Positions 11,085 to 32,290 of a stretch of DNA of 64,000 bases are shown in pieces. The stretch comes from Diabrotica undecimpunctata. Taxonomy: Eukaryota > Arthropoda > Insecta > Coleoptera > Chrysomelidae. The notes under the pieces were generated by a model. It searched no databases and was not told the origin of the DNA. It saw nothing but the letters and a program-made list of their open reading frames with translations. The position numbers and the translations under genes were made by a program. The number at the start of each line of letters is the position of its first letter. The first letter of the stretch is position 1. Location of the stretch: positions 163,056,328-163,120,327 of the forward strand of contig NC_092806.1 of NCBI RefSeq assembly GCF_040954645.1, given 5' to 3'.

Positions 11085-11151
<67 letters not shown>
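11085..11151. repeat. (TA)n microsatellite, about 33 repeats
   Basis: An uninterrupted TA tract of about 66 bp is seen directly. Length is likely polymorphic and the tract may form a cruciform. Confidence 0.97.
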
Positions 11152-14640: not shown

Positions 14641-15790
14641 TCAAAACTTCCACAAATTTTAACATATTTTATCACTACAGCCGTTTCGGCAGAGTGCCTT
14701 TTTCAAGTGATCTACTTTTGGATAAGATTGTAATTTATAGTCTTTACGAAATAAGTTGAGGAGGGGAGAATTGTGTGTCTCAAGTTGGTCGTTCAGAATT
14801 ATGTCTGTGTTTTTTAATTTGTTAATTTCCATTGATAGAGATAGCTTAAGGCCTTTATTTTGGATGTGAAGAATTTGAAATTCGTCATTAAAAGAATGAT
14901 TATGATCTAGAAGGTAAAGTGCGTTTGCAGAATATGTTTTCCTATTATTAAAAGCCCTTTTATGTTCTACTATACGTTTGTTAAAGTTTCTACCAGTTTG
15001 ACCGATGTAAGTTTTGGGCAGTCACCGCATTTAAGTTTGTATACACCACAGTGTAAGTGCTTTTTATTTTGGCTCTTGTTATTTTTAATATATTTGTCTA
15101 AGTTGTTGTTTATTTTAAAAGGTGGTGTTATTCATTTCTTTTGTATGTGTTTGGCAATTTTTGTTGTTATTTCGCCTATATATGTAATCGAACAAAAGTA
15201 CTGGGTTTTTTCTCTTACAGTGGAAATACTAACTTCAGGACTATCTTGTGTAATTTTTAATTTAAAATTTTATTAAATATTTGTTCGTTGTACCCATTAT
15301 TTACTGCTATTTGTTTAATGATAGTATGGAGGGACGGTGTGGACGAGGACGCAAGGAAAATCGGCGCGGCAAATTGGCAACGGTTGGCGATGAACAGAAA
15401 CGACTGACGAAATAGACTGGGGAAGGTCAAGGCTCAACTAGAGCTGTAGCACCACTGATGATGATGATGATGGATATGTTTATGAAATACGGAGAACCCA
15501 TGTTTATTTTAAAGTCTGATGATTTTTAAATCTAAAAAATTAATGGATTGATTTTGTTCTGTTTCGACTGTAAATTCAATATGACTATGGATTGAATTAA
15601 TATACGATAAAAATTGATCAAGTTGTCTGATAGTTCCTGTAAAACATACCAGTACGTCGCCTAAGTATCTCCACCAATATAAAAACTGTTTGAATATATA
15701 TGAATGAATATGAATATAAATGAATCACTTTCTTCTCACACACACGTCGAATTAAACGAAAACTTTGCCGGTATTTTTAAACTTTACGAA
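14641..15790 (-). pseudogene. Penelope-like element: RT end and GIY-YIG endonuclease, interrupted
   Basis: On the minus strand: WWRYLGDVLVCFTGTIRQLD (about 15680; YVDD expected at the active site, here YLGD), HIEFTVETEQNQSINFLDLK (about 15570), then after a nested LINE piece, HCGVYKLKCGDCPKTYIGQT (about 15050), GRNFNKRIVEHKRAF, and a long C-terminal part ending near 14700. RT followed by a GIY-YIG (Uri) nuclease is the hallmark of Penelope elements. Frameshifts and the altered RT box make it inactive. The 3' end carries a small hairpin at 14681-14712. Confidence 0.85.
15335..15476 (+). pseudogene. RTE-like LINE 3' tail with (GAT)n end, nested
   Basis: The plus strand reads RRWRDGVDEDARKIG-like wording, then GCTGTAGCACCACTGATGAT and a GATGATGATGATG tail. 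This is the usual terminus of RTE-like insect LINEs. It splits the minus-strand Penelope element, so it inserted later. No convincing target duplication was seen. Confidence 0.65.
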
Positions 15791-19959: not shown

Positions 19960-20672
19960 AGATATTTGGAGAAATCCAATGCAGCGATGGTTCGTGGAGA
20001 ATTAAAATGAACCACGAGCTGAATGAACTAATGCAGAGCGCAGACATTATAAGATTTGTAAAGTCACAAAGACTAAACTGACTTGGTCACCTAGAAAAAT
20101 GCCAGATAATCGAGCTGTAAAAGTAGTCCAGAGATGGAAGCCCCAAGGAAACAGAACAAGAGAAAGGCCCCGTAAAAGATGGATAGACGACGTAGAGAGG
20201 GATCTTAAATCCATGAACATCAGGCAGTGGTGAAGGAAAGTATCCGACAGGGCAGAATGGAAGAACATTGTTAAGTAGGTCAAGACTCACAAAGGGTTGT
20301 AGCGCCATTAGAAGAAGAAGAAGAAGACTTTAAAATGTATAATATATGTCTGAATTGTCAATATAAATGGGCAAGATAAAATTAAATTATTAGAAAAATT
20401 TTCACTAAGTAAACAGAACAAGAGAAAGGCCCCGTAAAAGATGGATAGACGACGTAGAGAGGGATCTTAAATCCATGAACATCAGGCAGTGGTGAAGGAA
20501 AGTATCCGACAGGGCAGAATGGAAGAACATTGTTAAGTAGGTCAAGACTCACAAAGGGTTGTAGCGCCATTAGAAGAAGAAGAAGAAGACTTTAAAATGT
20601 ATAATATATGTCTGAATTGTCAATATAAATGGGCAAGATAAAATTAAATTATTAGAAAAATTTTCACTAAGT
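19960..20672 (+). pseudogene. LINE 3' tail with exact 262-bp tandem duplication
   Basis: The plus strand gives the C-terminal tail of an RTE-like LINE: MNHELNELMQSADIIRFVKS, QRLN.LGHLEKC, then a basic stretch WKPQGNRTRERPRKRWIDDV and a (GAA)n tail. Bases 20149-20410, covering the end of this tail plus about 90 bp beyond it, are repeated directly at 20411-20672 with no difference visible by eye. The duplication breakpoints share a short AA microhomology. Confidence 0.85.
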
Positions 20673-20754
20673 AACAAAAAAGTTGTTTAATTTATTAGTG
20701 TTTTTCTTTTAAAAACGATTTCCAAACTGGAAATTAAGACATCAATAAACACAT

Positions 20755-20809: not shown

Positions 20810-21529
20810 ATTTTGTAAACTTTTCAACTCCAAATTTTATACAGCTCTTCTAATTCAAGTTTCTTTGTATAAATATCAAATATAGTGAAATGGAATCTTA
20901 TAGGTTATTCCTTGCACGTTAAATTTACTTATATATATTTAGAGAAAACGGGAGTTTTATACGGACACAATATTCTTAAAAATAATATACGCGTTCCCAA
21001 ACTGTTCCAATTTCTTTTTTGCACAGAAATGTTCCACTTTAACTGCCAAAATGACTACTGCTACTCATCTTTCGCTATAATTTTGTTTTGCCTTCGTCTT
21101 TTTCTCGGTCTAAGGCTTTATTATTTTGTAGTATTCATGAAATTGCAAATTTTTTATCGTATATCATTTGTTAAATATTTTTAACATAGACAGAAGCTCA
21201 AAATATAAATCTTTAAAAAGAATAGATTTATAGGAAAGATTATTTTGTGTTATGTTTTAACAATATTGTTATCCTCTATCTATGTATCTTTCTTTTTAAT
21301 CTATATGTCTAACACTCTATCTATTAATTTATTTACCGAGACTTCTCGTATATACTGTAGACCAAAATTAACTCATCTTTACTATATACAGTACACATCA
21401 ATATAATATACTAAGGATATGTTTACATGTAGCTGATAGATGACGGAACTGACGTCACATTACTAGCAACAATGTCCGACGCGATTTTGACAAGTGATTA
21501 ATTATTTTCAGATATCTTAATATTAGACA
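20810..21529. other. Non-coding stretch left of the retrozyme
   Basis: A 99-codon frame at 20885-21184 is open but has low-complexity, hydrophobic content and no family resemblance. No element was recognised. Confidence 0.35.
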
Positions 21530-21541
21530 AGTAACATTATG
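21530..21541. repeat. Left target-site duplication of retrozyme (12 bp)
   Basis: AGTAACATTATG lies immediately left of the first retrozyme base and is repeated exactly at 22597-22608. Confidence 0.85.
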
Positions 21542-21602
21542 AATTAAATGGCCAAATATATGGCCTAGGAGGACAAATTCGTTAAACTTCCCGTGCTCGA
21601 AT

Positions 21603-21670
21603 CGGTATCAATAAAGTGTTATGATCATTTCGGCCTAGCCCAGCCTCATCAGACACTTTGGGCTGATACA
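21603..21670 (-). ncRNA. Hammerhead ribozyme copy D (inverted, core intact)
   Basis: On the minus strand: helix I outer GTATCA, inner AAAGTGT, then CTGATGA, stem II GGCT/GGCC with a short loop, GAAA, a mini helix III ATGATCAT, cleavage triplet ATA, then ACACTTT and TGATAC closing helix I. All invariant core positions (CUGAUGA, GAA, A15.1-U16.1, H17=A) are present. Predicted cleavage falls between 21620 and 21619. Confidence 0.88.
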
Positions 21671-21787
21671 AATTCAAACTCGGAAAGTCCAACGAATGTC
21701 TCCCAAAACTTCACTACAACAGTAGTTAGCTACAAAGGCGCCACCTGCTTTGGCGGAGACATTCGTTGGACTTTCCGAGTTTGAATT

Positions 21788-21854
21788 TGTATCAGCCCAA
21801 AGTGTCTGATGAGGCTGGGCTAGGCCAAAATGATCATAACACTTTATTGATACC
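21788..21854 (+). ncRNA. Hammerhead ribozyme copy A (G12 mutated)
   Basis: Same architecture as the other copies, but the core reads CCAAAA where the others read CCGAAA. The changed base corresponds to the invariant G12, the general base in the hammerhead mechanism, so this copy should be catalytically dead. Helix I arms AAAGTGT and ACACTTT are intact. Confidence 0.85.
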
Positions 21855-22106
21855 GATTCGAGCACGGGAAGTTTAACGAATTTGTCCTCCTAGGCCATAT
21901 ATTTGGCCATTTAATTTAATAAAGCGATAGCGGCTTTCGCTAAAAGATTATATCTTTTACACATTTCGCATAGCGCAGAGGATACAGAAAACGATATTAT
22001 CATATCGTTTTCGTTCACGGCCGCCAAAGCAGGTGGCGCCTTTGTAGCTAACTACTGTTGTAGTGAAGTTTTGGGAGACATTCGTTGGACTTTCCGAGTT
22101 TGAATT

Positions 22107-22173
22107 TGTATCAGCCCAAAGTGTCTGATGAGGCTGGGCTAGGCCGAAATGATCAAAACACTTTATTGATACC
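22107..22173 (+). ncRNA. Hammerhead ribozyme copy B (cleavage-site U mutated)
   Basis: The core CTGATGA and GAAA are intact, but helix III/cleavage reads ATGATCAAAACAC where intact copies read ATGATCATAACAC. The missing T is U16.1, which pairs with A15.1 and precedes the cleaved base, so cleavage should be lost or strongly reduced. Confidence 0.83.
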
Positions 22174-22425
22174 GATTCGAGCACGGGAAGTTTAACGAAT
22201 TTGTCCTCCTATTCCATATATTTGGCCATTTAATTTAATAAAGCGATAGCGGCTTTCGCTAAAAGATTATATCTTTTACACATTTCGCATAGCGCAGAGG
22301 ATACAGAAAACGATATTATCATATCGTTTTCGTTCACGGCCGCCAAAGCAGGTGGCGCCTTTGTAGCTAACTACTGTTGTAGTGAAGTTTTGGGAGACAT
22401 TCGTTGGACTTTCCGAGTTTGAATT

Positions 22426-22492
22426 TGTATCAGCCCAAAGTGTCTGATGAGGCTGGGCTAGGCCGAAATGATCATAACACTTTATTGATACC
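22426..22492 (+). ncRNA. Hammerhead ribozyme copy C (core intact)
   Basis: Complete type I fold: GTATCA and AAAGTGT (helix I, 5' side), CTGATGA, stem II GGCT..GGCC, GAAA, ATGATCAT (very short, self-complementary helix III), triplet ATA, then ACACTTT and TGATAC. Predicted cleavage follows 22476. The tiny helix III implies action as a dimer or in tandem, as in other minimal type I hammerheads. Confidence 0.9.
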
Positions 22493-22596
22493 GATTCGAG
22501 CACGGGAAGTTTAACGAATTTGTCCTCCTAGGCCATATATTTGGCCATTTAATTTAATAAAGCGATAGCGGCTTTCGCTAAAAGATTATATCTTTT

Positions 22597-22608
22597 AGTA
22601 ACATTATG
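22597..22608. repeat. Right target-site duplication of retrozyme (12 bp)
   Basis: AGTAACATTATG, identical to 21530-21541, directly follows the last retrozyme base (...ATATCTTTT). Confidence 0.85.
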
Positions 22609-22941
22609 TGTTTAGTCAATCATGTAATGTATTGTTTTTGGTAAATTAATAAATTTGTTAAATTTTTAATGTTTTAGATCCAGTCACTTTAGTGACGAGC
22701 AATTAGCAACTACGTGATTATCAAATATATATGTTTTATATGTTTATGTTATAAAAATAATATTTTTAACGTTTTTATACTATCTTTAAGTATTTTACTA
22801 GTAATAACAGAGATACAACTAACTACCAAAGAAAATATTAATTCAGTGTATCTCAACACGCTCAAAATACTGTTTCTAATCTTTTAATAATGTTATTAAC
22901 AACCTATCAATACTTAGAAATCCTAAAAAGTTCAAACTTAC

Positions 22942-23136
22942 CTGTTAAAAATGATAACCTTCTCATGGCAGGAAACGGATGAAATCCCGAAGTATCCAAA
23001 ATGTCTAGTTGATATATTTCACCTCTAATTCTATATATTTTTCTATGAAAGTCTTCGATTGTTGGTGTGTAACCGTCCGTATACTTATGGCCTAAGAATC
23101 TTGCTACAAGGCAGGTCTTACCAACCCTGGATGAAC
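22942..23136 (-). CDS. RASD1: RASD1/RASD2-like small GTPase, internal exon
   Basis: This 195-nt exon encodes 64 whole codons and is bounded by a TTTCAG acceptor (right) and a CAG|GTAAGT donor (left). It continues the P-loop begun in the exon at 34125-34356: GSSRVGKT (G1, GxxxxGKT), then switch I YTPTIEDFHRK (effector Thr), IRGEIYQLDILDTSG (G3), and FHPFPAMRRLSFLTG. The block DFHRK.Y.IRGE.YQLDILDTSG.HPFPAMRRLS.LTG is nearly specific to the Dexras1/Rhes (RASD) family, Ras-like GTPases of G-protein and nitric-oxide signalling in mammals. The G4 (NKGD), G5 and C-terminal CAAX exon(s) should lie further left; I could not find them by eye down to position 1, so they are probably beyond the window. 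The exon is phase 1/phase 1. Confidence 0.93.
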
Positions 23137-23399
23137 CTGAAACAAAAAAATCTAAATTAATCTAAACGGTTAATACATCAAATTACATATTTCGGATTTC
23201 TAAGCGTACATGCTCCTTTTAGCAGATGCATTCAGATTTTGCACTGGTACATTAGCCTTTTTGTATTCTAAGCATAATATTTAGAACAGTATAATTAGAT
23301 TTTACATATCTTAGAACAAAATTTTCATTTTCTTTAAATACCTTAAAACATTTTTTAAGTGATTCCAATGATTGATACCAAATCAGTTTTGAAATTGAC

Positions 23400-30259: not shown

Positions 30260-32290
30260 ATAGTCATTAATACCCTTGTCTGCAGATCAATACGCCTTTG
30301 CGATGGTGCTAGTGGAACCTCTGAGCTCTTTAGTTTAAAACAAGCCCTTCTTCTTGGCACTTCCCCTACTTTCTCTGTTGTACCCTTTACATATGGTAGA
30401 ATTACTTTTGCAATCGGTTTTTCCTCTTCTGTTCGATCCTAAATTATTTTTTGAGCATCGTGTGCATTTTCAATGGTATATGCTGAAAAGCCGTTTTTTT
30501 AGTGCTGTTTTCACATTATGCGTTTCTTTATCTGTTAGTCTTTCGGATCGTGTCATCAGGGTTTTAATGACTAAATGTAATTGTGCAGGATGGTGATGTG
30601 AATCGGTATGTAAGAATCTGTCGGTAGGTGTGGATTTTCTGTATACTGTGTGTCCTATGTACTAGTCTTTCTTCTTTATTATTAACACATCTAAAAATGG
30701 CAGTTGTTCGTTTTCTTCCAGTTCCATAACAACTGGATTTTATGGTGTATATTATTGATTTACCTGTATATGTATACAGGATATTATGTGTATATTATGT
30801 ATTATGTGTATATTATGGATTTACCTCCAAGGGAAAGTAAATGGTAAGAGAGGACCGGGAAGAAGACGCATTTCCTGGCTTCAAAATTTGCGAAAGTGGT
30901 ATAACACGACTACCACTGAACTGTTCCGCGCTGCAATAAGCAAAGTGAAGATAGCCGTGATGATCGCCAACGTCCGGAACGGATAGGCACTTTAAGAAGA
31001 AGAAGATATTATTGATGTGTTCTAAAAATACCTTTAGTTTTTCTTCTCCATGTGTCCATATTATAAAAGTGTCATCCACGTACCTAAGCCAAAGTTTGGG
31101 TTTGCGTTCGGTTATTTCTATTGCTCGCTGTTATATTTCTTGCATAAATAGATTTGCTATTACCGGTGACAGTGGTGAACCCATAGGTGCTCCTTCAACT
31201 TGTTTATATCTTTGCTCCTTATAGATGAAATATGTGTTATTTCAGCAGTGCTTTGTAAGATTTAGAGTATCCTGTGGTATTGGATACTTTTTGCTTATAA
31301 CCTCTAATGATTCATCTATAGGAATATTCGTAAAAAGTGAAACCACATCGAAGCTGACTAATAAATGTCCCGGCACAAGAGCCACAACTTTTATACGTTC
31401 GATGAAGTGGCTTGCATTCTTGGGGTAAAAATCCGCTTCTTTTGCATATGGTTGTAGCTGTTCAGCCAAAAATTTTGCCAGTGTTTGTAGAAAAGATCCG
31501 ATAGACCTACCTATTGGTCGCAATGGTAATCCTGTCTTATATACCCTGGGTAGGCCGTAAAGTTTTGCACATCTTGACAACTTCTATTTAGATATAATAA
31601 GATGAAACTCATGTTCTTTCTTGATGTCTGAGGCTTTGATCTTGGCTTTTGTTACTTTTTCTAGATATTTTGTGGGGTCCGACGAGGTCCTTTGATATGT
31701 CGTATCGTTTAGGATATCGTTTATTTTCGCTTCGTAGTCTTGAATATTCATTACTACCGTGGCATTGCCTTTGTCAGCTGGGAGCACAAGATTTCTTTGT
31801 TGTTCTTCAAATTATGTAAGGCGTCTTTTTCTTCGTGGGTTAAATTTTTTTTTGATGGTTTGGCTGTTCTTAATATTTTTGATACATCTTGGCGTATGAT
31901 CTCCGCTGTTTCTGCTGGGAGATTAGTAATAGTAGTCTCAACCTTGGTAATAATATTTTCTACTGGAATTCGTGCAGGTGCAACAGCAAAATTGAAATCA
32001 TTTAAAAAAACACTATTTGTGGCTTCATCCAATCTCAGATAGTTTTTCTTCCTTCTTTGGCCGCTGTGTAGTAAAAAATTTTAAAACTTTTTAATTTGTA
32101 TTTTCTTAGTAAGGTCCAAGTCTACTTCTGCTCGGAAGTTTGTCAGTTTATCAAAAAAATTCCACAGTATTGGATGAATTATATTACTTAGCTTAAGGTG
32201 CAACTGTAATGACTCTAAATTCATTTTGTCGATGTCTCGTCTGATATCATAGATCACTATAAGTAAACGATCTGTTATCAATAAAATGTA
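30260..32290 (-). pseudogene. Penelope-like element, most of RT, interrupted by a LINE tail
   Basis: On the minus strand, in order: an N-terminal region (frames at 32281-32081 and 32032-31754), [20 protein letters not shown] (31787), YGLPRVYKTGLPLRPI (about 31550), LVSFDVVSLFTNIPIDESL (about 31360), EGAPMGSPLSP (about 31200), LRYVDDTFIIWTHGEEKL with the intact YVDD box (about 31090), then after an inserted LINE, MELEENEQLPFLDVL (about 30720), RYLHTDSHHHPAQ (about 30600) and LPYVKGTTEKVGKVP (about 30380). Several frameshifts break it. The GIY-YIG nuclease part is missing on the left. Confidence 0.88.
30760..31005 (+). mobile_element. LINE family A 3' tail inserted in Penelope element, 11-bp target duplication
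   Basis: A 246-bp insert ends in AAGAAGAAG and encodes GPGRRRISWLQNLRKWYNTT, ELFRAAISKVKIAVMIANVR before its stop. It splits the Penelope reading frame at EHINNI. ATATTATTGAT occurs on both sides (30749-30759 and 31006-31016), an 11-bp target duplication. It is 5' truncated, as usual for LINEs. Confidence 0.85.

Follow-up and report, generated by a model that had tools for sequence, protein, structure and literature searches.

Animal retrozymes that combine type I hammerhead ribozymes with tandem units and circular RNA have been described, also from insects (PMC7229834). As characterised in that work, these non-LTR elements carry a hammerhead with a 2-bp helix III closed by a tetraloop, form tandem units of 150-450 bp with no LTR, have a GC content below 45% and, when target-site duplications are present, show duplications above 4 bp; RNAmotif descriptors were used there, and recognition by Rfam is no defining feature. 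Plant LTR retrozymes (PMC4918200) are likewise non-autonomous and hammerhead-bearing with circular RNA. Penelope-like elements (PLEs) have been proposed as the mobilisers of animal retrozymes (PMC7229834, PMC7761336, PMC11722881), and Cervera and de la Pena (2020; PMC7229834) call them a strong candidate. The PLEs described in Anolis (Poseidon PAc, PMC11167929) and Adineta (Pen, PMC3846280) show inverted arms with a tail on one of them, short duplications, AT-rich targets and tandem units. In Adineta the inverted repeats are pLTRs and the duplications, where present, are of 8-10 bp (PMC3846280), and in Anolis both DNA strands are cut and extended, the start site of the purified protein is alike on top and bottom strands, and Frangieh et al. 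traced the tail to two internal start sites (PMC11167929).

The element analysed here lies at 21542-22596 of a 64,000-nucleotide stretch of the Diabrotica undecimpunctata genome (the window) and consists of two full and one partial direct unit plus one inverted partial unit. Sequence comparison placed the starts of the direct units at 21755, 22074 and 22393 (spacing 319 and 319 bp), and Tandem Repeats Finder returned a period of 319, 2.6 copies and 98% matches, which confirms the regular spacing noticed in the initial annotation. The inverted arm A (21542-21756, minus strand), likewise noticed there, is 100% complementary to 22340-22554 and in unit coordinates extends from 162 on its outer side (site 1) to 267 on its inner side. 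It meets the direct units head to head at 21755-21756, where the arms overlap by 2 bp, A ending at 21756 and B starting at 21755. On the plus strand follow unit B (21755-22073) and unit C (22074-22392), each of 319 bp, and the partial unit D (22393-22597), whose outer limit falls at 204-205 in unit coordinates (site 2). The initial annotation did not mention the exact 12-bp direct repeat AGTAACATTATG that brackets the element at 21530-21541 (left) and 22597-22608 (right), base 22597 being common to the end of unit D and the right copy; this bracketing identifies an insertion with a target-site duplication. The inverted unit, previously left unexplained, is one of the two arms of a Penelope-style insertion. 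Just upstream, a tandem-duplicated 262-bp block (20145-20674, 99% match) is coding-like by eye and resembles the end of a non-LTR reverse transcriptase, and about 340 bp past the insertion there is an exon of a Ras-family GTPase (22938-23140, minus strand; Pfam Ras, E 6.6e-14).

We believe, with a probability of roughly three in four, that the window element is an insertion of a non-autonomous animal (non-LTR) retrozyme, copied in Penelope style off a self-cleaved, probably circular RNA. It shares with the animal non-LTR retrozymes the type I hammerhead with a two-pair helix III and tetraloop, the tandem units of that size class with no LTR, a GC content of 0.417, a non-coding unit (longest ATG frame of 30 aa in three laps) and duplications above 4 bp, the window's being exact and of 12 bp; in contrast to what is found here, the main text of PMC7229834 makes no mention of inverted or head-to-head arrays. 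The plant retrozymes differ by their type III hammerhead, LTRs, 4-bp duplications and larger RNAs (according to PMC7229834). The hammerhead repeats of newt and axolotl, as described in PMC7229834, resemble it in their units of about 330 bp and in a weak palindromic helix III favouring dimers, but belong to vertebrates, and helix III of Amex1 has one pair against two here. PLEs, as described in the works cited above, encode a reverse transcriptase and an endonuclease, whereas the retrozyme unit has no coding frame and thus neither a reverse transcriptase nor a GIY-YIG endonuclease, and its end sequence differs. The window element is PLE-style inserted and itself no PLE.

Positions 35-99 of the unit match the layout of a type I hammerhead. 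Helix I has seven pairs (AAAGUGU/ACACUUU), an internal loop and six further pairs (GUAUCA/UGAUAC); the core comprises CUGAUGA, helix II and GAAA, and helix III has two pairs and a GAUC tetraloop. Helix I is the open-ended helix, so the layout is not that of type III. Its internal loop GCCC is complementary to the GGGC of loop II, as read from the sequence rather than computed. The motif CTGATGA occurs at 21806 (+), 22125 (+), 22444 (+) and 21652 (-). The initial annotation had assigned a hammerhead to every unit, and the type I layout is indeed present in all four, but only those of arm A (21605-21669, minus strand; predicted cut between 21620 and 21619) and unit D (22427-22491, plus strand; predicted cut after 22476) have an intact core, since AAAA replaces GAAA in unit B (G12 to A) and AA replaces the cut-site TA in unit C (U16.1 to A). 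Our independent placement of the two cut sites agrees with the earlier one. A descriptor of the core and helices I, II and III matched just A and D in the 64-kb window, and one motif in total in 150 dinucleotide shuffles of it. The Rfam check that had been proposed gave nothing: the hammerhead models had no match in 21400-22720 at gathering or even at E up to 10, and no family matched at gathering anywhere in the window. The four Rfam matches in 21400-22720 (mir-2831 twice, mir-876 and a snoRNA model) were all below the cut-off, and those to mir-2831 and mir-876 were rejected as products of the perfect inverted repeat.

With the hammerheads of B and C broken and that of A on the opposite strand, each strand has one intact ribozyme, and judging by these motifs the window locus alone should not release a 319-nt monomer. 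The initial reading as an insect retrozyme is supported; the accompanying claim that transcripts of this locus would yield 319-nt RNAs is unsupported. Energy models, which leave out tertiary contacts, gave -19.2 kcal/mol for an alternative fold versus -8.4 kcal/mol for the ribozyme fold, the preferred fold pairing UGAU of the core with AUCA of helix III, and on this basis cleavage by one motif alone may be inefficient. A dimeric ribozyme would be possible through the palindrome AUGAUCAU, by analogy with those published for hammerheads with a weak helix III (PMC7229834); the two-strand calculation for the dimer gave -48.6 for another fold versus -33.4 kcal/mol for the ribozyme. For the 319-nt circle the predicted fold was -118.7 versus -72.3 for 100 shuffles (z -8.5). 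The retrozyme RNA probably self-cuts into circles.

The unit is repeated across the genome of D. undecimpunctata (1.74 Gb, 2867 contigs), as the initial annotation had expected of a retrozyme: at least 226 matches came from the 40 of 1317 candidates that were scored, and at least 195 with a diverged unit as query (40 of 1420 candidates scored). The genome holds at least hundreds of matching units, the true copy number being higher, and the matches are dispersed as short arrays over many contigs. Exact pattern scans of viral contigs and of prokaryote contigs gave 0 matches each. In 171 unit segments from 31 loci the core was intact in 125 of the 131 copies fully covering the motif, and core changes numbered 6 in 1772 bases versus 253 in 32397 outside the ribozyme, these core counts including four loci (L032, L033, L034 and L048) that are copies of one insertion. 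That insertion, which also includes L031, has been carried on contig C11 to at least five places within a larger repeat, and the number of units varies among these loci with common flanks. Array change at the DNA level therefore happens, as would be expected of an ordinary satellite spread by unequal crossing-over and containing a functionless hammerhead-like sequence. However, a satellite is at odds with the dispersal of short arrays over many contigs, with the target-site duplications, with the fixed position of both outer ends (see below) and with a core intact in nearly all copies, and we regard it as a most improbable explanation.

A scan of the same genome with the Rfam model RF00163 gave 65 matches among 74 scored of 202998 candidates, 16 of them over the cut-off; in the control, weak matches appeared in 11 of 14 prokaryote genomes and none was over the cut-off. 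By eye, none of the 65 places coincided with the 40 loci from the unit search. Two of them belong to a different hammerhead repeat (C8:112368400-112370000, positions 500-668 and 886-1054 of that locus), over the Rfam cut-off and with a CTGACGA core. Its two 169-bp copies are 386 bp apart, each between inverted AT-rich ends, and it looks like a hammerhead within a small hairpin element.

We compared the insertion architecture in 50 loci plus the window, which gave 46 independent insertions once L032, L033, L034, L048 and L088, copies of one insertion in a larger repeat, had been dropped before counting. Set 1 comprised the best matches to unit C and set 2 the best matches to the diverged unit, so that neither is random; 9 of the 40 loci of the unit-C search and 4 of the 24 places newly found with the diverged unit remained outside the sample. 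Outer and inner end positions were compiled by hand, tolerating single mismatches near the ends. Two-armed head-to-head arrays, with the units directed away from a central junction, made up 33 of the 46 insertions, and 27 of these 33 bore the two-ended mark of PLE-type insertion, the outer end of one arm falling within unit positions 149-175 and that of the other within 199-211, the order of the two zones along the contig being either (11 and 16). When both ends of a two-armed insertion fell inside the zones, there was one end in each in 27 of 28 cases. The zones were defined after seeing the data and hold 73 of 79 outer ends in 12.5% of the unit. The rule was broken in 6 of the 33: L037, L085 (210/98), L089, L093, L102 and L103 (205/205). 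One-armed insertions amounted to 13 of 46, and 12 of them ended in one of the two zones. The inner ends behaved differently from the outer ones, in that the 44 from the 22 two-armed insertions of set 1 (the 11 of set 2 being omitted from the test) showed no departure from uniform (KS p 0.96). A clustering of inner ends around the ribozyme cut (84/85) was considered and discarded, as 84 (C11), 84 (L059) and 87 (L056) are too few among 44.

Exact duplications of 12-14 bp flanked 10 of the 46 insertions (the window, L031, L035, L036, L038, L044, L050, L053, L056 and L098) and shorter ones of 6-9 bp another 4 (L040, L052, L058 and L090). At 16 of the 46 the duplication was unreadable inside TA runs, and at a further 16 the duplication search was negative, about 10 bp being visible by eye in one of them (L100). 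A (TA)8+ run adjoins 28 of the 46 insertions. The window's own insertion has none; the sole (TA)8+ neighbourhood in the window is a (TA)33 run at 11085-11151.

Mobilisation by a LINE through twin priming likewise inverts the 5' part of an insertion and produces head-to-head order with duplications of about 12 bp, and so would fit both of these features here. Twin priming, however, leaves one fixed 3' end, and here both outer ends are fixed, about 45 nt apart; the window insertion ends without poly(A) or a simple 3' repeat, and all 18 resident PLE insertions picked for comparison follow this end rule too (see below). We therefore hold a LINE to be very improbable. Slightly less remote, and still highly unlikely, is that the inverted unit arose by self-priming of a copy, as a hairpin, with no second primer on the other strand. 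Self-priming on an antisense template has been proposed for the inverted repeats of rotifer PLEs (PMC3846280), and a fold-back would suit 2 of the 22 junctions, L043 (inner ends 181/181) and L045 (124/129). A hairpin turn, on the other hand, should give mirrored arms, and at most of the 22 junctions the two joined positions bear no relation to each other; moreover, the two arms of L056 and of L085 carry different variants.

The resident PLEs served for comparison with these insertions. The window contains a piece of a PLE reverse transcriptase at 31242-31583 (minus strand), and as a query it had at least 150 genome matches (150 of 150 scored, of 8018 candidates). Many family 1 matches form minus/plus pairs, some with a tandem spacing of about 2.6 kb. 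From family 1 we examined one insertion over its full length and another 11 at both ends, and from family 2 both ends of six insertions, found through an endonuclease-like piece at 14659-15021. In all 18 of these head-to-head insertions (12 of family 1 and 6 of family 2), which were chosen for being head-to-head and are no random sample, one arm is short and the other about 25-40 nt longer, forming a tail. In the family 1 locus L061, RVT_1 was detected with E 9.1e-13, GIY-YIG scored 9.6 bits, below the cut-off, a motif GVYK...YIGQT was read by eye, and the protein shares 46% identity over 89% with one from Anolis carolinensis. The PLE end in this locus (L061:540-1000) contains a hammerhead-like half, GGCAAGTGAGATCTTGCCGAAACGTCGTC, without the usual CTGATGA. 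A likeness of the retrozyme end region to either PLE tail was looked for by eye and was no better than chance. Runs of (TA)8+ are a common target of family 1 and of many retrozyme copies. With a search distance slightly unlike that used for the retrozyme, they neighboured 11 of 12 family 1 insertions versus 0 of 6 of family 2, and on this correlation family 1 is the better candidate helper for the retrozyme. By analogy, the retrozyme end pattern matches the two internal start sites published for PLE reverse transcriptase (PMC11167929); unlike the purified Anolis PLE described there, the genomic retrozyme copies use one start site per arm.

The arms also bear information about the template. Among 76 measured arms, 65 were longer than one unit, the longest reaching 1944 nt, that is, several laps. 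Variants diagnostic of subfamilies were uniform within insertions in 43/46, 45/46, 37/39 and 37/40 cases, the highest values in 1000 shuffles being 22, 24, 22 and 29. Private variants recurred in each covering unit of the long arm of L097, and in L093 and L098 rare variants occurred in every covering unit of both arms; we read these, from the distribution of the variants, as one monomer copied repeatedly. The long arms of L096 and L031 alternate two unit types, which would fit a dimer circle, and a later duplication of a 638-bp block would give the same. The different variants in the two arms of L056 and L085 look as if two RNA molecules had served. Private variants spanned by three units or more numbered 177, with five diagnostic columns and those adjoining the ends set aside; 159 of them were confined to a single unit, 13 were present in some units and 5 in every one, so the argument for circles draws on a few cases. 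The partly common variants outnumber the fixed ones, meaning that templates were not always a homogeneous circle or that arrays changed later. A test of identity was uninformative, its means being nearly equal (0.0115 within the same arm, 0.0115 with the other arm and 0.0122 between insertions), because most variants are singletons, and shared variants were used instead.

A PLE-type insertion could also start from an uncut linear multimer transcript of a genomic array, ribozyme and circles being irrelevant to movement. For the Anolis PLE, hammerhead mutants were without effect on insertion in vitro and unprocessed RNA was considered the main substrate (PMC11167929), and the 13 partly common variants together with a subfamily shift within L054 point the same way. 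Nevertheless, a multimer from a mutated array is expected to bring differing private variants in each unit, against which stand the rare variants in every covering unit of L097, L093 and L098, in the last two in both arms, and the alternation in L096. We consider the linear multimer an unlikely template, yet one that deserves some weight.

The preferred reading, a retrozyme copied in Penelope style from processed RNA, suggests the following cycle, of which cleavage, circles and the PLE as the enzyme are the parts that we infer. Genomic arrays would be transcribed, and type I hammerheads would cut the RNA to units of 319 nt, sometimes 638 nt, which would then be closed into circles. A PLE protein with reverse transcriptase and GIY-YIG endonuclease would cut the two strands of an AT-rich target with a stagger of about 12 bp, and reverse transcription would begin inside the RNA, near unit position 162 on one strand and near 206 on the other. 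Both copies would circle the template for up to several laps and halt at arbitrary points, and once joined they would form a head-to-head array flanked by duplications of some 12-14 bp. A PLE as the mobiliser is favoured by the matching end rule of the resident PLEs, by the published behaviour of these elements and by the similar targets. In more general terms, we lean towards the view that Penelope reverse transcriptases trans-mobilise animal retrozymes. Two RNPs, perhaps each loaded with a separate hammerhead-made RNA circle (monomer or dimer), would copy round from opposite strands of one staggered cut, one per fixed internal start, and the palindrome would be a fingerprint of circular-RNA insertion.

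The class of element was already known, and what is new is the evidence on its mobilisation. We found no report of the two-ended signature in retrozymes in the open-licence literature (supplements excluded), nor of this Diabrotica family in the open-licence literature on hammerheads in Coleoptera or Diabrotica. The enzyme that returns animal retrozymes to DNA has so far been a proposal in the literature, and here a single genome provides both a retrozyme and PLEs with the same two-ended mark and an overlapping target preference. The exact start sites (about 162 and 206) can be tested with purified PLE protein, and the architecture offers a handle with which to search for retrozyme insertions and their helpers in other animals.
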